A program made the translations under genes and the position numbers. The notes beneath the pieces were generated by a model. That model worked only from the letters and a program-made list of their open reading frames with translations, searched no databases and was not told the origin of the DNA. This document shows, piece by piece, positions 17,931 to 27,641 of a stretch of 47,540 nt of DNA (position 1 is the stretch's first letter; each line of letters begins with the position of its first letter). Source of the stretch: Candidatus Izemoplasma sp. (GTDB lineage Bacteria > Bacillota_I > Bacilli_A > Izemoplasmatales > Izemoplasmataceae); the NCBI GenBank assembly GCA_029939945.1, contig JAOZRX010000005.1, positions 1 to 47,540 of the forward strand. Direction: 5' to 3'.

Positions 17931-18731
17931 CTATTTAGTTATATTAGAATCAATTAATCCTAATCTTATTAATCCGTTTATTAATCCATCTTCTTTTATG
18001 TCATCAGTTAAATACTTCGCATGCTTCTTTGCATTTATACTTCCGTTACCCATACAAACACTATTAGGAATAAAGTCTAACATTTCAATATCATTATCTC
18101 CGTCTCCAAAGGCATATGCATTTTCTAACTTAATATTCTCAAGTTCTAATATTCTTTTTATCCCTTGTTCTTTACTCATCCCTTTACTTAAGACATCAAA
18201 TCCATCTCCTAGCCAAGAAACAACTTCCATATCATAAAATAACTCTTTATAATAGTCATGATTTTCATTTTTTGAAAAAGCCCACATTTGAAAGATATCA
18301 TTATCCATATAAAAATGTGGATCTATTCTTGGTAATTTCATATCTACTAACTCAAAAGCCAGTTTCCCTTTATCATCAACTATATTTAATGTTTCATCAA
18401 ATTCACCTAAGAATCCATATTTCATTTTATCTTCTTCAAACTTCTTAACTACACAAAGTACTTTATCTTTAGGGATTGGATTACGGTGAATAGTAACTCC
18501 ATCTTTAATAATTATTTGTCCATTTATTGTAATAAATATATTAATATATTGCTTAATTTCTTCTATTATATGAAGCATATAAAAAGCACGACCTGTCGCA
18601 ATCGCTATTTCAATATTTTCATTTTGATGTAGGATTTTTAATGCTTCAATTGTTGAAGCAGGTATTTTCTTAATATCTGGATCATAGAGTGTACGATCGA
18701 TATCAAAAAAGATTATTTTCTTATTAGTCAT
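17931..18731 (-). CDS. Cof-type HAD-superfamily hydrolase
   Basis: A 266-residue HAD phosphatase of the Cof/IIB subfamily. Motif I is IIFFDIDRTLYDPD, motif II lies in IAIATGRAFYML, and motif IV is YAFGDGDNDIEML. Members dephosphorylate small sugar phosphates or cofactors; the substrate here is unknown. The frame extends upstream to 18818, but the ATG at 18731 has AGAGGTGC five bases before it and gives the usual N-terminus. It is the first gene of the operon that runs through priA to lemA. Confidence 0.85.
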   Translation of the reverse strand: MTNKKIIFFDIDRTLYDPDIKKIPASTIEALKILHQNENIEIAIATGRAFYMLHIIEEIKQYINIFITINGQIIIKDGVTIHRNPIPKDKVLCVVKKFEEDKMKYGFLGEFDETLNIVDDKGKLAFELVDMKLPRIDPHFYMDNDIFQMWAFSKNENHDYYKELFYDMEVVSWLGDGFDVLSKGMSKEQGIKRILELENIKLENAYAFGDGDNDIEMLDFIPNSVCMGNGSINAKKHAKYLTDDIKEDGLINGLIRLGLIDSNITK

Positions 18732-18914
18732 GTTTTGCACCTCTAACTTATTATAACATAAATATATATATAATATCATTATAAAGGGTTTTTGAAAAAA
18801 AAGTGTTTTAATAATCATTCATTCAACTCAATTTGATTTTTGAACTTGTTTATCGTATTATTAATTTATAGTATTTAATATTTCTGTGAGGGATAATCAT
18901 CTAACGTGGAACAC

Positions 18915-18959
18915 AAGGTTATCATTTTGAATATTTTTGAATATTTTTTTGATAACCTT
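18915..18959. repeat. Inverted repeat at the broken 5' end of the RHS fragment
   Basis: AAGGTTATCA (18915-18924) and TGATAACCTT (18950-18959) form a perfect 10-bp inverted repeat around a 25-base AT-rich loop. On the plus strand TTTA follows, so it could act as a terminator. It lies just where RHS homology begins and could mark a junction. It is not part of a recognised insertion sequence. Confidence 0.45.
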
Positions 18960-20517
18960 TTTAGGTTGGCATGGAAGACAACTAAATCAAATTCTTTTAC
19001 TCAGCAATCCAACTACTACTTCTAATCTTATTGCTGAGAGTAATTATTCATATACAAATAATTCAATGACTAACGATAACCCTATTTCTGTTAATGCAAA
19101 TACAATATACACATTAACAGTTCCATCAATGCCTGGTTCAAATGATGCACCATACATCATGGTTTATGGTGAAGATGAAAACTATCTAGTTGGAGACGCA
19201 GATGAACTATGTACACTTGATGGAGATGTATGGATTTGTTCTTTTACAACCTCTTCTTCTGAAACATATCTTAATACATTGAACTTCTATCATTCTGATA
19301 TAGGATTATTTATGAGTTATTATGATTTTGAAGATTTGAATTTTACTTTATATGAGGTTGGAGAATATACAACGACTATATCTTACACATATAATGATCA
19401 AGGCTACAGAACAAGTAAAACAATAAATGAAACTACAATAGATTATCACCTACAAGGTGATAAGGTATTATTTGAAACTGATGGAACATATGGTATAATT
19501 TTTACATATGATTTTGATGGAAAAATAATAAGTTTTAACTATGACTCAAACAAAGATGAAGGACCTGAAGGAATAGAATATTACTATATACGTAATCAAC
19601 AAGGAGATATTACTAAGATAGTAGATAAAGATGGAGATATAGTAGTTGAATACTATTATGATGCTTGGGGTAAATTATTAAATATTATTGATTCTACCTC
19701 CGACTCTATAGGAACTATAAATCCATATCGATATCGTGGATATCGATATGATGAAGAAACAGCATTATATTACTTAAATAGTAGATATTATGATGAGAAT
19801 ATTGGTAGGTTTATTAATTCTGATGGATTATTAGGCTCTCAAGGAAATATACTTGGTCATAATATGTTTGCATATACACAAAACAATCCAGTAATGTATA
19901 CAGACGGAACCGGATATGAAGCAGAGTGGTATAATCCACTTTCTTGGAATAGTGGTACAAAAATAGCTGTTGCAGTGGGTATCATACTTGTTTTAGGAAT
20001 AGCAACAGTTATAACTGGCGGGGCTGCAGCTGGAGCTGCAGGATTCATATTTGCAGGGGCATTTCAAGGAGCAATAACTGGTGCACTCATTGGAGGAGCA
20101 ACAGGAGCAATAATAGGTGGAACTATTAGTGGGCTAAGTGGAGATGGATTTAAGAATGGTGCAATTAATGGTGCTGCAGATGGAATAATGATGGGTGCAT
20201 TCTTTGGAGGTGCAGGAGGTGCAGTAAATAGACTATCTATTTTATCCAAATGGAATCAAGGAAATTCTGTAAGTAAATTTGCTGCAATGAAATACCATTA
20301 TGAGACTCATAGTATTCAAACTGGATCGCAATTTTTGGGTAATGGAATGGTAAAATATACCAGAGATGCATATGCCTTTGGTCAAGCATATTCGAGTTCA
20401 GCTTTTTGGAAAACATATGAATCAAGTTTAAAGCAACCTGGCTGGATGATAAATAACTCAACTGGAAAAGGATTATATGATTTCAGTTACAGAATAATAT
20501 ATTTTCTAAATAAATGA
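18937..20517 (+). CDS. 5'-truncated RHS/YD-repeat protein with a C-terminal toxin-like tip
   Basis: A 526-codon frame with only a TTG and no ribosome binding site at its 5' end (in-frame TGA at 18928), so the N-terminal part of the gene is missing. Residues 9-16 (LGWHGRQL) are RHS-like. An unusual beta-rich insert (about 24-140) follows. Residues about 145-325 are an RHS core: YTYNDQGYRTSKT, YYYDAWGKL, YRYRGYRYDEETALYYLNSR, GRFINSDG, and FAYTQNNPVMYTDGTGY at the core's end. After that comes a glycine-rich hydrophobic stretch (about 345-430) typical of pretoxin regions, then about 95 residues with KYHYETHS and YTRDAYAFGQ, probably a toxin domain of unknown type. A candidate immunity gene follows at once. 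It may be a silent orphan tip. Confidence 0.7.
   Translation: MNIFLITFLGWHGRQLNQILLLSNPTTTSNLIAESNYSYTNNSMTNDNPISVNANTIYTLTVPSMPGSNDAPYIMVYGEDENYLVGDADELCTLDGDVWICSFTTSSSETYLNTLNFYHSDIGLFMSYYDFEDLNFTLYEVGEYTTTISYTYNDQGYRTSKTINETTIDYHLQGDKVLFETDGTYGIIFTYDFDGKIISFNYDSNKDEGPEGIEYYYIRNQQGDITKIVDKDGDIVVEYYYDAWGKLLNIIDSTSDSIGTINPYRYRGYRYDEETALYYLNSRYYDENIGRFINSDGLLGSQGNILGHNMFAYTQNNPVMYTDGTGYEAEWYNPLSWNSGTKIAVAVGIILVLGIATVITGGAAAGAAGFIFAGAFQGAITGALIGGATGAIIGGTISGLSGDGFKNGAINGAADGIMMGAFFGGAGGAVNRLSILSKWNQGNSVSKFAAMKYHYETHSIQTGSQFLGNGMVKYTRDAYAFGQAYSSSAFWKTYESSLKQPGWMINNSTGKGLYDFSYRIIYFLNK
19868..19899 (+). repeat. Left copy of the 32-bp direct repeat
   Basis: It begins TTGCATATACACAAAACAAT and encodes the AYTQNNPVMY segment at the end of the RHS core. 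It is identical in all 32 bases to 24055-24086. Divergence begins exactly at 19900, where the toxin tip starts. Confidence 0.95.
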
Positions 20518-20528
20518 GGATGAAAACA

Positions 20529-20849
20529 ATGAAAATGATAAGAAATAGCATTATTAACTCATACATGAAAATTAAGATGCCTAATGTACTTATTGATGAT
20601 GAATACGACTTCATTTATGATCATACTTTATTAGGAGGGTTTATCTCAAAGTATGAAAATGGGGTTGCAATTAATATTAATGAGTTGATGGATATGAAGA
20701 ATCAAAGGATCATAAAACATTTTGAAAGAGTTATATATAATTGCAAGAATACAGAGCACAGAGAAAATATTAGGAATTACAAAATAAGTTACATGTCACT
20801 AATTGAATATTTAATATTGGAAAATGAAAATAATACTATTTCAAAGTGA
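20529..20849 (+). CDS. Candidate immunity protein for the RHS tip
   Basis: A 106-residue protein of no recognised family, starting MKMIRNSIINSYMKIKMP. In-frame ATGs exist at 20514 and 20520, but the TGAGG that includes the RHS stop codon (20515-20519) makes the best ribosome binding site for the ATG at 20529. It directly follows the RHS tip, overlapping or abutting its stop, has no signal peptide and is helical and charged. Small cytosolic proteins in this position are usually immunity proteins that bind the toxin tip. The role is inferred from position only. Confidence 0.5.
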   Translation: MKMIRNSIINSYMKIKMPNVLIDDEYDFIYDHTLLGGFISKYENGVAININELMDMKNQRIIKHFERVIYNCKNTEHRENIRNYKISYMSLIEYLILENENNTISK

Positions 20850-21035
20850 TAAAAGTAACTATAATATATACTACTAGATAACTATACAGACTCCAATATT
20901 TGTTAAACAGATAATTTCTGTGTTCTTACTTATGCATTATGAGCTTTTAGAAAAACAATTTATTCATATCAAATCATCTTATCCGCGGGTTATAATAGGC
21001 TTACAAGAGTCTGTTGAGTAGGAAAGGTGATTACT

Positions 21036-22613
21036 ATGGAACAACTAATCACAGCTTTATATTGCAGAGTATCTCGAGAAGATGATTTATCCGAGTTAAG
21101 TTCAAGCATCGAGACACAGAAAACATATTTAAAGAAATACGCAATTGAAAATAATCTAACACATATTAAATTCTATATTGATGAGGGTTATTCAGGAACA
21201 TCATTTGATCGTCCTGGGTTTCAGGAATTAATTCAAGATATAGAAGAACATAATGTTACCACCATTATTACAAAAGATTTATCAAGATTGGGTAGAAACT
21301 ATTTAACAACTGGCTATTATATCGAACACTATTTTCCAACAAACGGTGTTCGATATATTGCTATCAATGATAATGTAGATACATCATTGAGTGAGAATGA
21401 ATTTACACCATTTCGCAATATATTGAATGAATGGTATGCAAAAGATATTAGCAAGAAAATCCGAAGTGCCTATCGAACAAAGGCCATTTCAGGACAGTTT
21501 ACTGGATCTTATGCGCCATACGGTTACACAAAAAATCCTAAGAACAAGAATCATTTGTTAGTACATGAACCACAAGCTCAGGTTGTGAGAACTATTTTTA
21601 AGTTATATCTTGAAGGATTCAGTATTTACAGAATCTCTCATATTCTAAGAGAGAAGAGAGTTTTAACACCACGAGCTGAAACGAATAAAGCAACAGGTAA
21701 ATATGGATCTAGTAATATCATTAACTATCCTTTTATCTGGTCTGTTGGAACCATAAGTAACATATTGGAAAACAAAGAATATACAGGATGCTTGGTATCT
21801 AATAAACATCAGACAAAGTCATATAAAGAAAAAAGACTAACAGTGAATCCGAAGGCTGAATGGATAATTGTAAAGGAAACACACCAAGGCATCATTGATA
21901 AATCATCTTTTGAAATGGTCCAACAAATGAAATCAAAAAATAAACGAACTAAGAAGTATTTTCGACCTAACATTTTCAGAGGAAATATATATTGTGGAGA
22001 TTGTGGTAAATCCCTATCCCTCTCTGTCAGACCAGATAGAAAAACACACGGTACATTTGAATGCAGTTCTTATAAACGCTATAGTAAAATCAAATGTGCT
22101 AGTCACTATATTACTTATGAGGTGGTATATAACTACTTCATATCTAATTTGGAGTGCGTTCTTAAAAGTTTCAAAAAAGATAAAAATCAATTCATAACAA
22201 ATCTAATAGAGATAAATGATATATCAGAGTCTACTAAGAAACTCAATATAAAGAAAATTGAGATAACAAATCGTCTCAATAAAGTAAATGAAGTTATAAA
22301 AAATCTTTATGAAAGTTATGTGTTTAAACACATATCAGATGATGTATTTCAGCTACTTGAAAAAACATATGAACAAGAACGATCAGAAATTATGAGTGAA
22401 ATCGAGAAAATCCAAAATAAGCTAGATCAATGTCAATCTTTTGTGAGTGATGCTAATAAGTTTTGTGATATACTATCTACAATCAAAAATATTAAACAGC
22501 TTAACGAGAAGACTATTCATACGTTGATTAGCAAAATATTTGTATACAATACTAGGTCTAATGGAGTTAATAGGGACGTAGAGATTCGATACAATTATAT
22601 TTCTAAAATGTAA
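21036..22613 (+). CDS. Large serine recombinase (TndX/TnpX-like)
   Basis: A 525-residue large serine recombinase. Residues 1-150 are the resolvase domain: ALYCRVSREDD with the catalytic serine at residue 13, DEGYSGTSFDRPGFQEL, and TKDLSRLGRNYLTTGYYIE. A recombinase domain follows (PYGYTKNP...RTIFKLYLEGFSIYRIS). Then come a zinc ribbon, with cysteines in YCGDCGKSL and later in FECSSYKRYSKIKC, and a C-terminal coiled coil (about 390-475). The frame is open from a GTG at 21027, but that is in the AAGGTG ribosome binding site; ATG 21036 is the likely start. It is intact and probably active, and may have inserted the segment that carries it. Confidence 0.92.
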   Translation: MEQLITALYCRVSREDDLSELSSSIETQKTYLKKYAIENNLTHIKFYIDEGYSGTSFDRPGFQELIQDIEEHNVTTIITKDLSRLGRNYLTTGYYIEHYFPTNGVRYIAINDNVDTSLSENEFTPFRNILNEWYAKDISKKIRSAYRTKAISGQFTGSYAPYGYTKNPKNKNHLLVHEPQAQVVRTIFKLYLEGFSIYRISHILREKRVLTPRAETNKATGKYGSSNIINYPFIWSVGTISNILENKEYTGCLVSNKHQTKSYKEKRLTVNPKAEWIIVKETHQGIIDKSSFEMVQQMKSKNKRTKKYFRPNIFRGNIYCGDCGKSLSLSVRPDRKTHGTFECSSYKRYSKIKCASHYITYEVVYNYFISNLECVLKSFKKDKNQFITNLIEINDISESTKKLNIKKIEITNRLNKVNEVIKNLYESYVFKHISDDVFQLLEKTYEQERSEIMSEIEKIQNKLDQCQSFVSDANKFCDILSTIKNIKQLNEKTIHTLISKIFVYNTRSNGVNRDVEIRYNYISKM

Positions 22614-22704
22614 TTGGTTCCCATATTATACATTACTCCAGTAATATATCAAACAGTGTAATTTGCAAAACGAAGTCATAATTTTATTATTTTTCATTTA
22701 GAGA

Positions 22705-22758
22705 TTGACAAATATGTAATATTCGTCTAAAATGGAATTGAACTCCATAATAGACGAA
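22705..22758 (+). promoter_or_regulatory. Promoter with overlapping inverted repeat for the DUF4143 ATPase
   Basis: TTGACA (22705-22710) and TAAAAT (22728-22733) are spaced by 17 bases. The inverted repeat TTCGTCTA (22722-22729) / TAGACGAA (22751-22758), with an inner ATGGA/TCCAT pair, covers the -10 box and the transcription start. It could be an operator or a 5' mRNA hairpin. GAGGG (22761-22765) is the ribosome binding site. Confidence 0.65.
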
Positions 22759-22771
22759 ACGAGGGTTAATT

Positions 22772-23989
22772 ATGTATATAGATAGACAAATAGAATCTAG
22801 AATTTTAAAAGTTAAAGAAATGTTTAAAGTATTGTTGATTACAGGACCAAGGCAAACAGGCAAAACAACAACACTTAAACATTTATTTAAAGATGACTAT
22901 AACTATGTAACATTAGATGATATAACAGAGTTAGAAATTGCTAAAAACGATCCAAAACTATTTTTTCTAAACAATCCTTTACCACTAATAATTGATGAAG
23001 TTCAGTTTGCACCGAGTTTATTTAGTGAGATAAAAAGAAGGGTTGATGAAATAGAAGATTATGGACAAATTATCTTAACTGGTTCCCAAACATTTCATTT
23101 AATGCAAAATATTACAGAAACATTAGCTGGTAGAGTTGCTATTCTTGAATTCTCGGGGTTATCGTATCGAGAGATTAGTGGTGACAAATATTCTAAACCA
23201 TTTATTCCCAATGATGATTATTTAAACACAAAAAGAAGCACTAAAAACAATATTAATCTTTGGAATTTCATTCATAGAGGAAGCATGCCTGAATTATATA
23301 AAAAAAGTGATATTGATTGGCAAACATATTATGCTTCTTATGTTAGAACTTATATTGAACGAGACGTAAGAAGTTTATTAAATGTCAAAAATCTAGACTT
23401 ATTTTCGAGATTTATGATTAGCATAGCTGCTAGAACTGGGCAATTAATTAATTACTCAAATATATCTAATGAAATCGGCGTAGATATTAAAACAATCCAA
23501 AGTTGGTTGAAGGTACTTGAGGCATCAGGAATTATTGTTATAATTAGTCCTTTTTCAAACAACTCACTAAGAAGAATCGTGAAAACACCTATGATTTATT
23601 TTCTTGATACGGGATTAGTTAGTTATTTACTCAAATGGAATACAAAAGATACATTACAAAATGGAGCAATGAGTGGTCCAATATTAGAAACGTATGCGGT
23701 TTCTGAAATTATTAAATCATTTAAAAACAATGGATATCTAGATATCCCAATTTCTTTTTATCGAGATAAGGATATGAAAGAAATAGATTTAATTGTTAAT
23801 GATAATGGAATATTATATCCAATAGAAATTAAAAAAACAATGAATCCTAATTCGTCTATGGCTAAAAATTTTAAAGTACTTAACAAAGCCCTCGGCTTTA
23901 AAGTATTTAATGAAATAATTCTTTGTCTAATTAGCAAAAAAACATTATTAAAAGACTACTTAGTCGCATATCCAATAGAGAAAATATAA
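22772..23989 (+). CDS. ATP-binding protein, AAA_14 / DUF4143 family
   Basis: A 405-residue ATPase with Walker A LLITGPRQTGKTTTLKHLF, Walker B LPLIIDEVQFAPS and ILTGSQTFHLM (sensor region). The C-terminal DUF4143 domain includes PMIYFLDTGLVSYLL and the nuclease-like motif EIDLIVNDNGILYPIEIKK (D...ExK). The family is common in anaerobes and mobile regions, but its function is unresolved; nucleotide binding is clear. It lies between the serine recombinase and the right 32-bp repeat, with its own promoter, so it is likely cargo. Only a distant relative of the protein at 36792-38123. Confidence 0.85.
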   Translation: MYIDRQIESRILKVKEMFKVLLITGPRQTGKTTTLKHLFKDDYNYVTLDDITELEIAKNDPKLFFLNNPLPLIIDEVQFAPSLFSEIKRRVDEIEDYGQIILTGSQTFHLMQNITETLAGRVAILEFSGLSYREISGDKYSKPFIPNDDYLNTKRSTKNNINLWNFIHRGSMPELYKKSDIDWQTYYASYVRTYIERDVRSLLNVKNLDLFSRFMISIAARTGQLINYSNISNEIGVDIKTIQSWLKVLEASGIIVIISPFSNNSLRRIVKTPMIYFLDTGLVSYLLKWNTKDTLQNGAMSGPILETYAVSEIIKSFKNNGYLDIPISFYRDKDMKEIDLIVNDNGILYPIEIKKTMNPNSSMAKNFKVLNKALGFKVFNEIILCLISKKTLLKDYLVAYPIEKI

Positions 23990-24054
23990 TATTATTAATT
24001 ATATCTATTCATATATCATTAATTTACATTCAATAACTACTGATTTTTCATGAA

Positions 24055-24104
24055 TTGCATATACACAAAACAATCCAGTAATGTATGTAGATCCAAATGG
24101 TTAA
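24055..24104 (+). pseudogene. Remnant of the original 3' end of the RHS gene
   Basis: The right copy of the 32-bp repeat (24055-24086) reads AYTQNNPVMY and continues VDPNG and a TAA stop (24102-24104). This is the usual end of an RHS core (NNP...DPxG). Upstream the frame is closed by a TGA three bases away, so it is a disconnected fragment. It is followed by a strong terminator that probably belonged to the intact RHS gene. Confidence 0.8.
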
Positions 24105-24118
24105 AGATATTGTTTAGC

Positions 24119-24155
24119 AACAGCCAATTTGAGATAAGCTCAAATTGGCTGTTTT
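24119..24155 (+). terminator. Intrinsic terminator after the RHS remnant
   Basis: A perfect 15-bp stem, AACAGCCAATTTGAG with CTCAAATTGGCTGTT and loop ATAAG, followed by TT. It separates the accessory island from rnjA. Confidence 0.85.
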
Positions 24156-24262
24156 ATAATATGTTCCTTTACCTTACAAAACATTTAACTATGTATTACA
24201 GCATTTATTTGTTATAATACATTTAGAAATATACATTTCATTTTAAGGAGGACTATTAAGTA

Positions 24263-25945
24263 ATGCAAAATAAATTATTAAAACAAAACGAAGTCGGTGT
24301 TTTTGCATTAGGTGGTCTTGGTGAAGTAGGAAAAAATATGTACTGTGTTGAGTACCAAGATGAGTTAGTTATTATCGACTCTGGTATTCTTTTTCCAGAT
24401 GATCATTTGTTAGGAATTGATTACGTTATTCCTGACTATACATATTTAGTTGAAAATCAAGAAAAAATAAAGGCTTTAATCATTACCCATGGTCATGAAG
24501 ATCATATTGGGGGAATCCCTTATTTATTACGCCAAGTAAAAATACCAAAGATATACGCTAGCGGACTCGCTATCGGATTAATTAAAAACAAGATGGAACA
24601 AAATCGTGGAGTTAGATACAATCTAATTGAATATCAAGAATTTGAAAAAATAGTTTTAGGAAAATTAAGTATTAGTTTCTTTAGAACAAATCACTCAATT
24701 CCTGATTCTTTTGGAATTGTTGTTCATACACCTGAAGGAGTAATTGTCCATACAGGTGATTTTAAGTTTGATTTCACTCCAACTGGACCTGATGCAGATT
24801 ATCAAAAAATAGCACAACTAGGTAGAAAAGGAGTTCTTCTTCTTTTAAGTGATTCAACGAATGCAGAACTTGCTGCATTCACAAAAAGCGAGCAATTAGT
24901 TAGTGAAAATATTAAAGATATCTTTACTAAAATTGAAGGTAGAGCAATTGTAGCTACATTTGCTTCTAACATTCACCGTGTTCAACAAATTGTTGAAGCA
25001 AGTATTGCGACAAAAAGAAAAATTGCTATATTTGGTAGAAGCATGTTACGCACAGTTGATGTTGGAACTGATATGGGATATATAAAAGCACCTCCTGGTA
25101 CTTTTATTGATTCAAATCGTATTAATAAATATAACGCTCACCAAATAACAATTATTTGTACAGGAAGTCAAGGAGAACCACTTGCTGCACTATCAAGAAT
25201 AGCTGCAGGAACACATCGTCAAATTAAGATACAACAAGGTGATACTGTAATATTTAGTAGTAGTCCAATTCCTGGTAACTTTGCTTCTGTAAGTAAAACA
25301 ATTAATCAATTATTTAGACGTGGTGCCAATGTAATTATTAATTCACCATTATCAGATGTTCATACATCAGGACATGGTGGACAAGAAGAATTAAAATTAA
25401 TGCTTAAATTAATAAAACCTAAATACTTTATGCCAATTCATGGTGAATATAGAATGCTTAAAATTCATTCAAATATTGGGATTATGACAGGAGTTAAAAA
25501 AGGTAATGAATTTGTCTTTGATAACGGAGGAGTATTAGCCGTAACTAGAAAGTCTGCTAGATACGCAGGTAAAGTTCAGGCTGGAAGTATCTATATTGAT
25601 GGTAAGGGTATTGGAGACATTGGAAATATCGTTATTAGAGATCGTAAATTACTAAGTGAAGATGGATTACTAAGTGCAATAGTTACAATTGATAAAACTA
25701 ATTTACAAGTTTTAGGTAAGCCAGCAATTATCTCTAGAGGATTTATCTACATGAGAGAACATGAAGAACTTACTAAAGGCATGAGTTCACTAGTTTCTGA
25801 AACAATTCAGAAAAAAATAATTTCAATGAAGAAAGTAAATATCACAGTACTAAAAAAAGATATCACTAAATTACTTAATGAATATATCTATTCTAGAACT
25901 GAGCGTAGCCCAATGATTATGCCAGTAATTATGACAGTAAATTAA
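24263..25945 (+). CDS. rnj: Ribonuclease J
   Basis: A 560-residue RNase J of the beta-CASP metallo-beta-lactamase family, a 5'-3' exonuclease and endonuclease of mRNA decay and rRNA processing. Metal-binding motif is ITHGHEDHIGGIPYL, with HTGDFKFD, SDSTNAE, the beta-CASP segment VATFASNIHRVQQI, and IHGEYRMLKIH near the C-terminal part. The length is normal. GGAGG (24247-24251) is the ribosome binding site at a long 11-base spacing. A TATAAT at 24213-24218 is the probable -10 box. Whether it is the J1 or J2 paralogue cannot be told. Confidence 0.95.
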   Translation: MQNKLLKQNEVGVFALGGLGEVGKNMYCVEYQDELVIIDSGILFPDDHLLGIDYVIPDYTYLVENQEKIKALIITHGHEDHIGGIPYLLRQVKIPKIYASGLAIGLIKNKMEQNRGVRYNLIEYQEFEKIVLGKLSISFFRTNHSIPDSFGIVVHTPEGVIVHTGDFKFDFTPTGPDADYQKIAQLGRKGVLLLLSDSTNAELAAFTKSEQLVSENIKDIFTKIEGRAIVATFASNIHRVQQIVEASIATKRKIAIFGRSMLRTVDVGTDMGYIKAPPGTFIDSNRINKYNAHQITIICTGSQGEPLAALSRIAAGTHRQIKIQQGDTVIFSSSPIPGNFASVSKTINQLFRRGANVIINSPLSDVHTSGHGGQEELKLMLKLIKPKYFMPIHGEYRMLKIHSNIGIMTGVKKGNEFVFDNGGVLAVTRKSARYAGKVQAGSIYIDGKGIGDIGNIVIRDRKLLSEDGLLSAIVTIDKTNLQVLGKPAIISRGFIYMREHEELTKGMSSLVSETIQKKIISMKKVNITVLKKDITKLLNEYIYSRTERSPMIMPVIMTVN

Positions 25946-26136: not shown

Positions 26137-27000
26137 TCACTCTACTATTAAGTTTTTTGTTATACTCTTAAAGAATTCTGCGCTCCATAAATTAAGATTT
26201 TCTACATCTTTAATAAATGGTAAAACATCTTTCTTTGCTTCAGTAAAATCAATTTTATCAAAACGATCAGATAAAATATCAATAAGAGCATCCAAAGTTA
26301 ATCTTTGTTCATTACTTATAGAATTAGTTTGTTTTAGTCTTGAGTGTAAATGTATTAAGTTAACAGGTGTATTGGTCGCAAGATAAAAGATATAATCATA
26401 CAAATCACGACCTTTTACTCTATTTCTCCAATTTCTTGCAATAACTGCATGAATTTTACTTGCAAATAAAGATGGCTTATCATAGACTCTCACCTGATAA
26501 GGAAAAGGTAGTAATCGATAGTTCAATTCGGTTGTGGCAAACTCAGGTGGACTAATATCAATTTCAAATCTTATCTTGATTTTTTCATTTTTAAGAATTA
26601 AATCGTTTTGATTAAAATTAGGATAAAAAATCAATAATAGCTCTTTAGTATTTCCTTTTAAAAAAGCTGATTTAATACTTGTGACATTTTGCTTTTCTTT
26701 AGTTGTTATTTCAAATTTAAGACCTAATGACTCAACAATTTGATTTAAAGCAGGTATATACTTATCCAGTAAAAAATCTTTGTCAGGAATTAATAATGTA
26801 AAATCTAAATCTTCAGAAAACCGATTAAGTCCATGAAAAATTCTTAAAGCAGTCCCTCCATAAAAAGCTGCATTCTTAAAAAAATCAGTTTTTGAGAGGC
26901 CAGCTAATGTAATTTCTTGCATTATTTCTTTAATAGCATTTTTTTTATCATCAATCGTGTTTAAATTGTAGTTTTTGAGCATTTGATCAAGAATGGTCAT
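26137..27000 (-). CDS. abiEii: AbiEii-type nucleotidyltransferase toxin
   Basis: A 287-residue AbiEii/AbiGii family protein, the toxin part of type IV toxin-antitoxin systems that can block phage growth. The nucleotidyltransferase motif is in FYGGTALRIFHGLNRFSEDL followed by DF (GGTxLR...DLD). Downstream SKIHAVIARNWRNRVKGRDL and YDYIFYL is the conserved K...R...RDLYD region. It overlaps the antitoxin gene by 14 bases, so expression is coupled. Full length for the family. Its location beside the accessory island suggests a second defence or maintenance module. Confidence 0.9.
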   Translation of the reverse strand: MTILDQMLKNYNLNTIDDKKNAIKEIMQEITLAGLSKTDFFKNAAFYGGTALRIFHGLNRFSEDLDFTLLIPDKDFLLDKYIPALNQIVESLGLKFEITTKEKQNVTSIKSAFLKGNTKELLLIFYPNFNQNDLILKNEKIKIRFEIDISPPEFATTELNYRLLPFPYQVRVYDKPSLFASKIHAVIARNWRNRVKGRDLYDYIFYLATNTPVNLIHLHSRLKQTNSISNEQRLTLDALIDILSDRFDKIDFTEAKKDVLPFIKDVENLNLWSAEFFKSITKNLIVE

Positions 27001-27589
27001 ATTTTCCTACCTCCTTAGTTACAATTTTCTTTAGTAATCTCATATTTGTAGATCTATATTTATCACATAAAAATAGTAGATTATCAAAATTCAGGTTGAA
27101 AAACTCATCCTCACTAATCCTTAAATCTTCAAAAATAAGTATTTTTAAAGCTTTCATACTAGATTGGGGAGAAGCTATATAAAGTCTATCACATATTGCC
27201 TTTTCAGGACTAGCAATAATATAAGAATATCCATTATCTATATAACTTTCTATTCCAAAAGGATAAGCCGTTTTAGGAATGTCACGATATGTAAATACTC
27301 CAAAGATATTATTATATATTTTCGATCTATTCTTATTAAATGTTGCATTTGTATACACAACTACTTTTTCAGGTATTAAACCATGGTAATAAAGTGCATA
27401 TTCAAAAGATAAATAGGACGGTCCATAAATGTATGCAGACAAAAAGTGTCCTGGTGTGTTTTTATCAGTCTCATATAGCCCTTTAACAACTGGAAAAAGA
27501 TTCTCTTTTTTTATCTCTCTATGTATCTTTCCTAGGGGATCTGAATAATCATCATATAAACTAAGCAAATCATTAATCGTTTTAACCAT
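26987..27589 (-). CDS. abiEi: AbiEi-type antitoxin/autoregulator
   Basis: A 200-residue protein in the AbiEi antitoxin position. Known AbiEi proteins have an N-terminal winged helix that binds inverted repeats in their promoter, plus a C-terminal antitoxin domain. YGPSYLSFEYALYYHGLIPE and ASPEKAICDRLY are characteristic of the family. An in-frame ATG at 27604 overlaps the ribosome binding site itself; the ATG at 27589, eight bases after GGAGG (27602-27598), is the better start. A 15-bp perfect inverted repeat flanks its promoter. Confidence 0.85.
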   Translation of the reverse strand: MVKTINDLLSLYDDYSDPLGKIHREIKKENLFPVVKGLYETDKNTPGHFLSAYIYGPSYLSFEYALYYHGLIPEKVVVYTNATFNKNRSKIYNNIFGVFTYRDIPKTAYPFGIESYIDNGYSYIIASPEKAICDRLYIASPQSSMKALKILIFEDLRISEDEFFNLNFDNLLFLCDKYRSTNMRLLKKIVTKEVGKYDHS

Positions 27590-27594
27590 ATCTG

Positions 27595-27641
27595 TTTCCT
27601 CCATATAATTGTATTATACACCATTATATGGAGGAAATCAA
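27595..27641 (-). promoter_or_regulatory. abiE promoter with palindromic operator
   Basis: On the minus strand TTGATT (27641-27636) and TATAAT (27618-27613) are 17 bases apart. The perfect inverted repeat TTTCCTCCATATAAT (27595-27609) / ATTATATGGAGGAAA (27623-27637) covers the -35 edge and spacer on one side and the start site plus ribosome binding site on the other. This fits autorepression by AbiEi, as known for other AbiE systems. Confidence 0.8.

Follow-up and report, generated by a model that had tools for sequence, protein, structure and literature searches.

Displacement of RHS tips by homologous recombination was described by Jackson et al. in 2009, with circular intermediates proposed and the origin left open (PMC2935791). 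Zhang et al. (2012) described polymorphic toxin cassettes and noted XerC/D only beside polyimmunity loci (PMC3482391), effector-immunity arrays of V. cholerae have been likened to integrons by analogy only (PMC5361080), and in the rAID system of Bacteroidales a tyrosine recombinase lies beside immunity-gene arrays (PMC12247911). Here we analyze an RHS locus in a 47,540-nucleotide stretch of Candidatus Izemoplasma sp. (GenBank assembly GCA_029939945.1, contig JAOZRX010000005.1, positions 1 to 47,540; hereafter the window), in which positions 19890-22639, judged from sequence comparisons, very likely constitute a mobile RHS-tip cassette of 2750 bp, made up of a tip, a putative immunity gene and a serine recombinase whose attachment (att) site would be the RHS core end. 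No earlier description of a system joining RHS tips to a serine recombinase was found in a literature search, most subscription papers being outside its reach.

TndX (Tn5397) and TnpX (Tn4451) move resistance transposons or integrative and conjugative elements into ordinary target sites. The window recombinase has the same protein architecture, but its clade appears to target RHS cores, with the carried tip completing the gene that is entered. Integrons share with the present locus type the stepwise silent cassette arrays and insertion at one end, beside the expressed position; they differ in having a tyrosine integrase encoded outside the cassettes and folded attC sites, whereas here a serine recombinase lies inside the cassette and insertion would create a protein fusion. 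The window locus does not qualify as an integron, its enzyme being a serine recombinase; attC sites were not searched for. RHS displacement arrays likewise keep the core, replace the tips and store old tips downstream, but there the core fragments vary in length and no recombinase is present (PMC2935791), in contrast to the fixed CC dinucleotide, serine recombinase and att arms seen here. In the rAID loci, too, arrays of genes for interbacterial conflict adjoin a recombinase, although it is of the tyrosine type and the arrays hold immunity genes only, with no toxin tips (PMC12247911); the systems of PMC3482391 and PMC5361080 exchange toxin and immunity gene as a unit, but have no site-specific recombinase for tips.

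Inverted arms at both ends of the candidate cassette

The locus reads, on the plus strand, RHS core plus tip, a 111-aa gene, a serine recombinase, a DUF4143/AAA_14 ATPase and a second RHS end. Its first open reading frame (ORF; 18937-20517) is a 5'-truncated RHS core fused in frame to a toxin-like tip; an RHS-associated core domain (TIGR03696, Rhs_assc_core; E 2.7e-18, residues 241-326) is followed by a variable tip with no Pfam match. Core and tip meet at a CC dinucleotide (19888-19889) within the RHS codons NN/PVM, which site and breakpoint comparisons suggest to be the crossover point and left cassette end. Directly past it lies a putative att arm, AGTAATGTATACAGACGGAACC (19890-19911), which doubles as code for the first tip residues. 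When this 22-bp arm (AGTAATGTATA..GGAACC) was scanned against both strands of the window (2 x 47.5 kb), the best match other than itself was on the minus strand at 22637, with 17 of 22 positions identical; this second arm (22614-22637, GGTTCC..TATACATTACT) is an inverted copy of the first. It leads into a second CCAGTAAT site 24 bp past the recombinase stop, whose CC (22638-22639) would form the right cassette end.

The outer hexamer is GGAACC at both ends, and TACATTACT-CC-AGTAATGTA is a perfect 9-bp dyad. Serine integrases bind to inverted arms flanking a central dinucleotide, and serine recombinases exchange strands at that dinucleotide, with no requirement for 32-bp duplications. An attP-like feature of this form, with inverted arms around a central dinucleotide, appears to lie beside the recombinase gene. 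Because the mirror arm lies at 22637, the cassette is placed at 19890-22639, and both the DUF4143 ATPase gene (22772-23989) and the right-hand copy of a 32-bp repeat at 24055 fall outside it.

The same site and breakpoint in other genomes

Throughout, G numbers denote genomes and L numbers loci compared with the window. RHS cores in this set end in ..AACAAT-CC-AGTNATGTATACAGAC. Most orphan tips are instead preceded by a recombinase stop codon and a further 23-24 bp (..CATTACT), followed by CC-AGTNATG, such that the sequence left of CC is the post-recombinase stretch and not RHS core. A degenerate pattern for the junction matched 21 times within the order, in 11 of 90 genomes, and within the class it matched in only 10 of 395 genomes; the reversed control gave none.

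Across 66 sites compared, tips that follow a core in one genome have homologues elsewhere that follow a recombinase-side arm, also between genera, and the alignment of such tips starts at CC (for example the window cassette versus L071:6670 of G037, and L263 versus L284). The breakpoints are sharp. RHS cores of G264 and G376, which belong to different genera, are 58-84% alike up to AATAAT-CC; past CC identity is 100% over 1.2 kb, covering tip and immunity gene, and 82-95% through the recombinase, then falls to about 35% directly past CATGACTCCAGTGATGTA, and relatedness is gone after the next CCAGTGATGTA. G069 and G050 have in common a 2.83-kb cassette, 88% identical, and their next tips differ. 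Inverted att arms around CC at both ends, a layout recurring in many genera and homologous cassettes delimited by CC together constitute the sequence-level support for the cassette.

The arms also appear to be cassette-specific. The hexamer 17-22 bp from CC varies among cassettes (GGAACC, ATAAGC, CCCAGC, AGCACC) and agrees between the two ends of one cassette; across 25 cassettes it matched the cassette's own far end at a mean of 4.1 of 6 positions, versus 2.5 for the tip directly following (permutation P=1e-5, a value unchanged once near-copies were removed). At 11 of 18 orphan junctions the last recombinase codons are retained, the gene itself often being gone, and L071 also retains N-terminal recombinase remnants; we therefore read each cassette as having brought a recombinase along on arrival and shed it afterwards. 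A strictly newest-first order of the arrays is not supported, since some of them (L070, L071) have their intact recombinase in a later cassette than the first.

Two further arrangements were observed. At L269 and L270, from two genera, tip and immunity gene are 100% identical and the recombinase of the same cassette 82-95%; this points to a transfer of very recent date and perhaps also to an exchange within the cassette itself. At L271 (G400) a recombinase of the clade has defence-like genes in place of a tip in front of it, and behind it, at the corresponding position, a tip that begins with NKYDPTG.

An RHS-dedicated recombinase clade and a second core site

The recombinase (21027-22613, plus strand) is a large serine recombinase of the TnpX/TndX kind: PF00239 Resolvase (E 2e-22), PF07508 Recombinase, PF13408 Zn_ribbon_recom and PF14287 DUF4368 all score above cut-off, giving a resolvase domain, recombinase domain, zinc ribbon and long C-terminal region. 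In its clade R14 and S16 of the N-terminal resolvase domain are invariant, S16 being the catalytic serine. TndX is 38% identical to it, and TnpX is its best PDB match. Its nearest relatives (42-49% identical) come from other genera and families and are situated in RHS tip arrays; the nearest named relatives carrying the recombinase are Izimaplasma-like and Acholeplasmataceae bacteria. The first-pass annotation had asked whether recombinases of this kind repeatedly lie behind RHS tips, and for the nearest clade this is borne out: all 12 of its members, recovered with support 100/99, are located in RHS tip arrays and share the CC site. Viral contigs held recombinases of the same kind, with none of the close clade and no matches to the att site, and on plasmids the close clade was not found, only TndX-like relatives below 40% identity.

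A second recombinase clade, from Bacilli and Clostridia (support 100/100), is RHS-linked in eight of nine rows, and behind its recombinases lie RHS fragments that begin at a different but likewise fixed core position, D/VETxLYYLxSRYY, a likely second att site in RHS genes. Seven loci belong here (L074, L075, L076, L125, L130, L273 and L281), the downstream RHS fragments all beginning near that motif. We think it likely, at somewhat less confidence than for the window cassette, that Bacilli and Clostridia harbor a general RHS cassette system with two recombinase clades and two core sites (NN/PVM and D/VET..SRYY), in which each insertion would supply a new in-frame tip and immunity gene and archive the old tip, with the first tip codons serving as an att arm.

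Cargo of the cassette

Family searches returned no match for the 111-aa gene (20514-20849, plus strand), which overlaps the tip stop by 4 nt and is a putative immunity gene by position alone. The window tip itself matched no family in Pfam, NCBIfam, PDB sequences or phages, and a structure model built from two sequences was too poor (pLDDT 42) and was not used. Tips of sister cassettes include TNT, Colicin_E5 and, just under the cut-off, an Ntox37-like domain; given these known toxin domains, tips of this class have the look of toxins.

Proposed mechanism and alternative explanations

We propose that the cassette closes to a circle, the joint of which (22614-22639 joined to 19890 onward) would be a dyad attP, and that the recombinase would join this attP with NN-CC-AGTNATG at the RHS core end, acting as attB. 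Exchange at this site would fuse the new tip in frame to the core, and the earlier tip or plain end would be shifted downstream, behind the recombinase-side arm of the cassette. Successive insertions would build arrays of silent tips, the older cassettes shedding their recombinase through internal deletion; insertion ahead of an existing tip would use an attL-like target.

Several observations weigh against this model. An attL-like target is unusual for serine integrases, and no circle, excision or occupied/empty pair within one species was observed in the genomes compared, most of which are metagenome assemblies. The att arms fit poorly in some cassettes (L264, L087 and some of L071). In the window, the tip has no known toxin family, the RHS gene is truncated, the sequence right of the second CC (AGTAATATATC) codes for no tip, and the DUF4143 segment and the 20-bp core copy at 24055 are left unexplained. 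As the window cassette sits on a truncated RHS fragment, this copy is probably stored or decayed.

The first-pass annotation had drawn the element differently, as a 4.2-kb segment that includes the DUF4143 ATPase, is bounded by the 32-bp repeats as att sites and would leave a plain RHS gene on excision. Its description of the DNA was accurate: the ORFs and their coordinates are as given, the repeat is exact (19868-19899 and 24055-24086, spacing 4187, extendable to 37 nt at 95%), and the right copy does run on into VDPNG-stop, as a separate RHS end in which 20 bp of core precede CC (24055-24104, plus strand, AYTQNNPVMYVDPNG-stop), with a terminator-like hairpin beyond it (24120-24152, plus strand). 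The left copy is the RHS core end (B-left half, CC and tip start). Since both copies code for RHS (..YTQNNPVMY), sequence conservation contributes to their identity, but identity over 32 bp within 12 kb is beyond chance. An exact repeat whose right copy is a plain RHS end does suit a 4.2-kb element, but the tip-start arm has its dyad partner at 22614-22637 and not at 24055, serine recombinases do not need duplications of this kind, and DUF4143 occurs in none of the other cassettes examined, while its relatives are present in genomes without such cassettes. We consider these wider boundaries very improbable, with the right end at 22639 and the ATPase probably unrelated to the cassette. The idea of a recombinase-borne segment that arms RHS proteins survives with a core-end att site and with tip and candidate immunity gene as cargo, on the strength of the linkage, shared site, mirrored arms and sharp breakpoints.

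Classical tip displacement by homologous recombination, with the recombinase gene a passenger of the tip module, was the alternative already offered there. Orphan tip arrays are its known outcome (PMC2935791), and a minority of orphan starts (L068:406, L071:7942, L072:7358, L283:1519 and window 24055) do show 15-30 bp resembling the core just ahead of CC, in place of the recombinase-side arm; homologous displacement may be the source of these, the window's right repeat copy included. As a general account it is improbable, since at most orphan starts core sequence is missing and an arm derived from a recombinase runs up to the same CC, breakpoints fall at CC on both sides though the cores are only 58-84% alike, and mirrored, cassette-specific arms would have no meaning under it; the variable-length core fragments typical of displacement arrays are not seen, only a few orphan tips keeping their 15-30 bp. 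It is also conceivable that the recombinase marks an unrelated integrase element that came by chance to lie behind an RHS tip, as its distant relatives (below about 40% identity) are mostly inserted elsewhere; against this, every one of the 12 clade members is in an RHS tip array and the att arm doubles as the first tip codons, which makes such a coincidence extremely improbable.

Chromosomal setting of the locus

The cassette lies in an RHS islet of about 5.4 kb (18776-24178, limits uncertain by about 25 bp) between a HAD-type hydrolase gene (17931-18818, minus strand) and an RNase J-like hydrolase gene (24263-25945), both names being read from sequence. Relatives were searched with each flank separately. 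In four same-genus genomes (G001, G003, G004 and G006) the HAD and RNase J-like genes are adjacent, with a short intergenic region, and the interval from about 18776 to 24178 is missing; the islet is likewise missing from more distant members of the family. These relatives indicate that the whole islet arrived in the window lineage and that the empty locus holds no RHS gene, contrary to the first-pass expectation that the uninterrupted locus would be a plain RHS gene. An unoccupied plain RHS end (NNPVMYVDP-stop) does occur elsewhere in the window genome (contig C115), which was assembled from a metagenome into 145 contigs and is 85% complete.

About 317 aa of core precede the tip in the ORF from 18937, and the N-terminal delivery part and full repeat region are absent. 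A hairpin insert of about 55-60 bp at 18905-18966 (GGTTATCA..TGATAACC), resembling a miniature inverted-repeat transposable element, seems to break the RHS frame near LTW/HGRQL. Near the islet, 26137-27604 on the minus strand encodes an AbiEii-type toxin (PF08843) and a 205-aa upstream partner, likely a type IV toxin-antitoxin pair.

Implications for RHS toxin exchange

A dedicated recombinase with predictable att sites offers a concrete and testable mechanism for tip swapping that has so far been ascribed to homologous recombination. The enzymes of these cassettes would be serine recombinases that naturally produce in-frame protein fusions, and their att arms provide a route to new toxin-immunity pairs. 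The cassette model would explain both the orphan tip arrays and the ongoing change of toxins in these bacteria.
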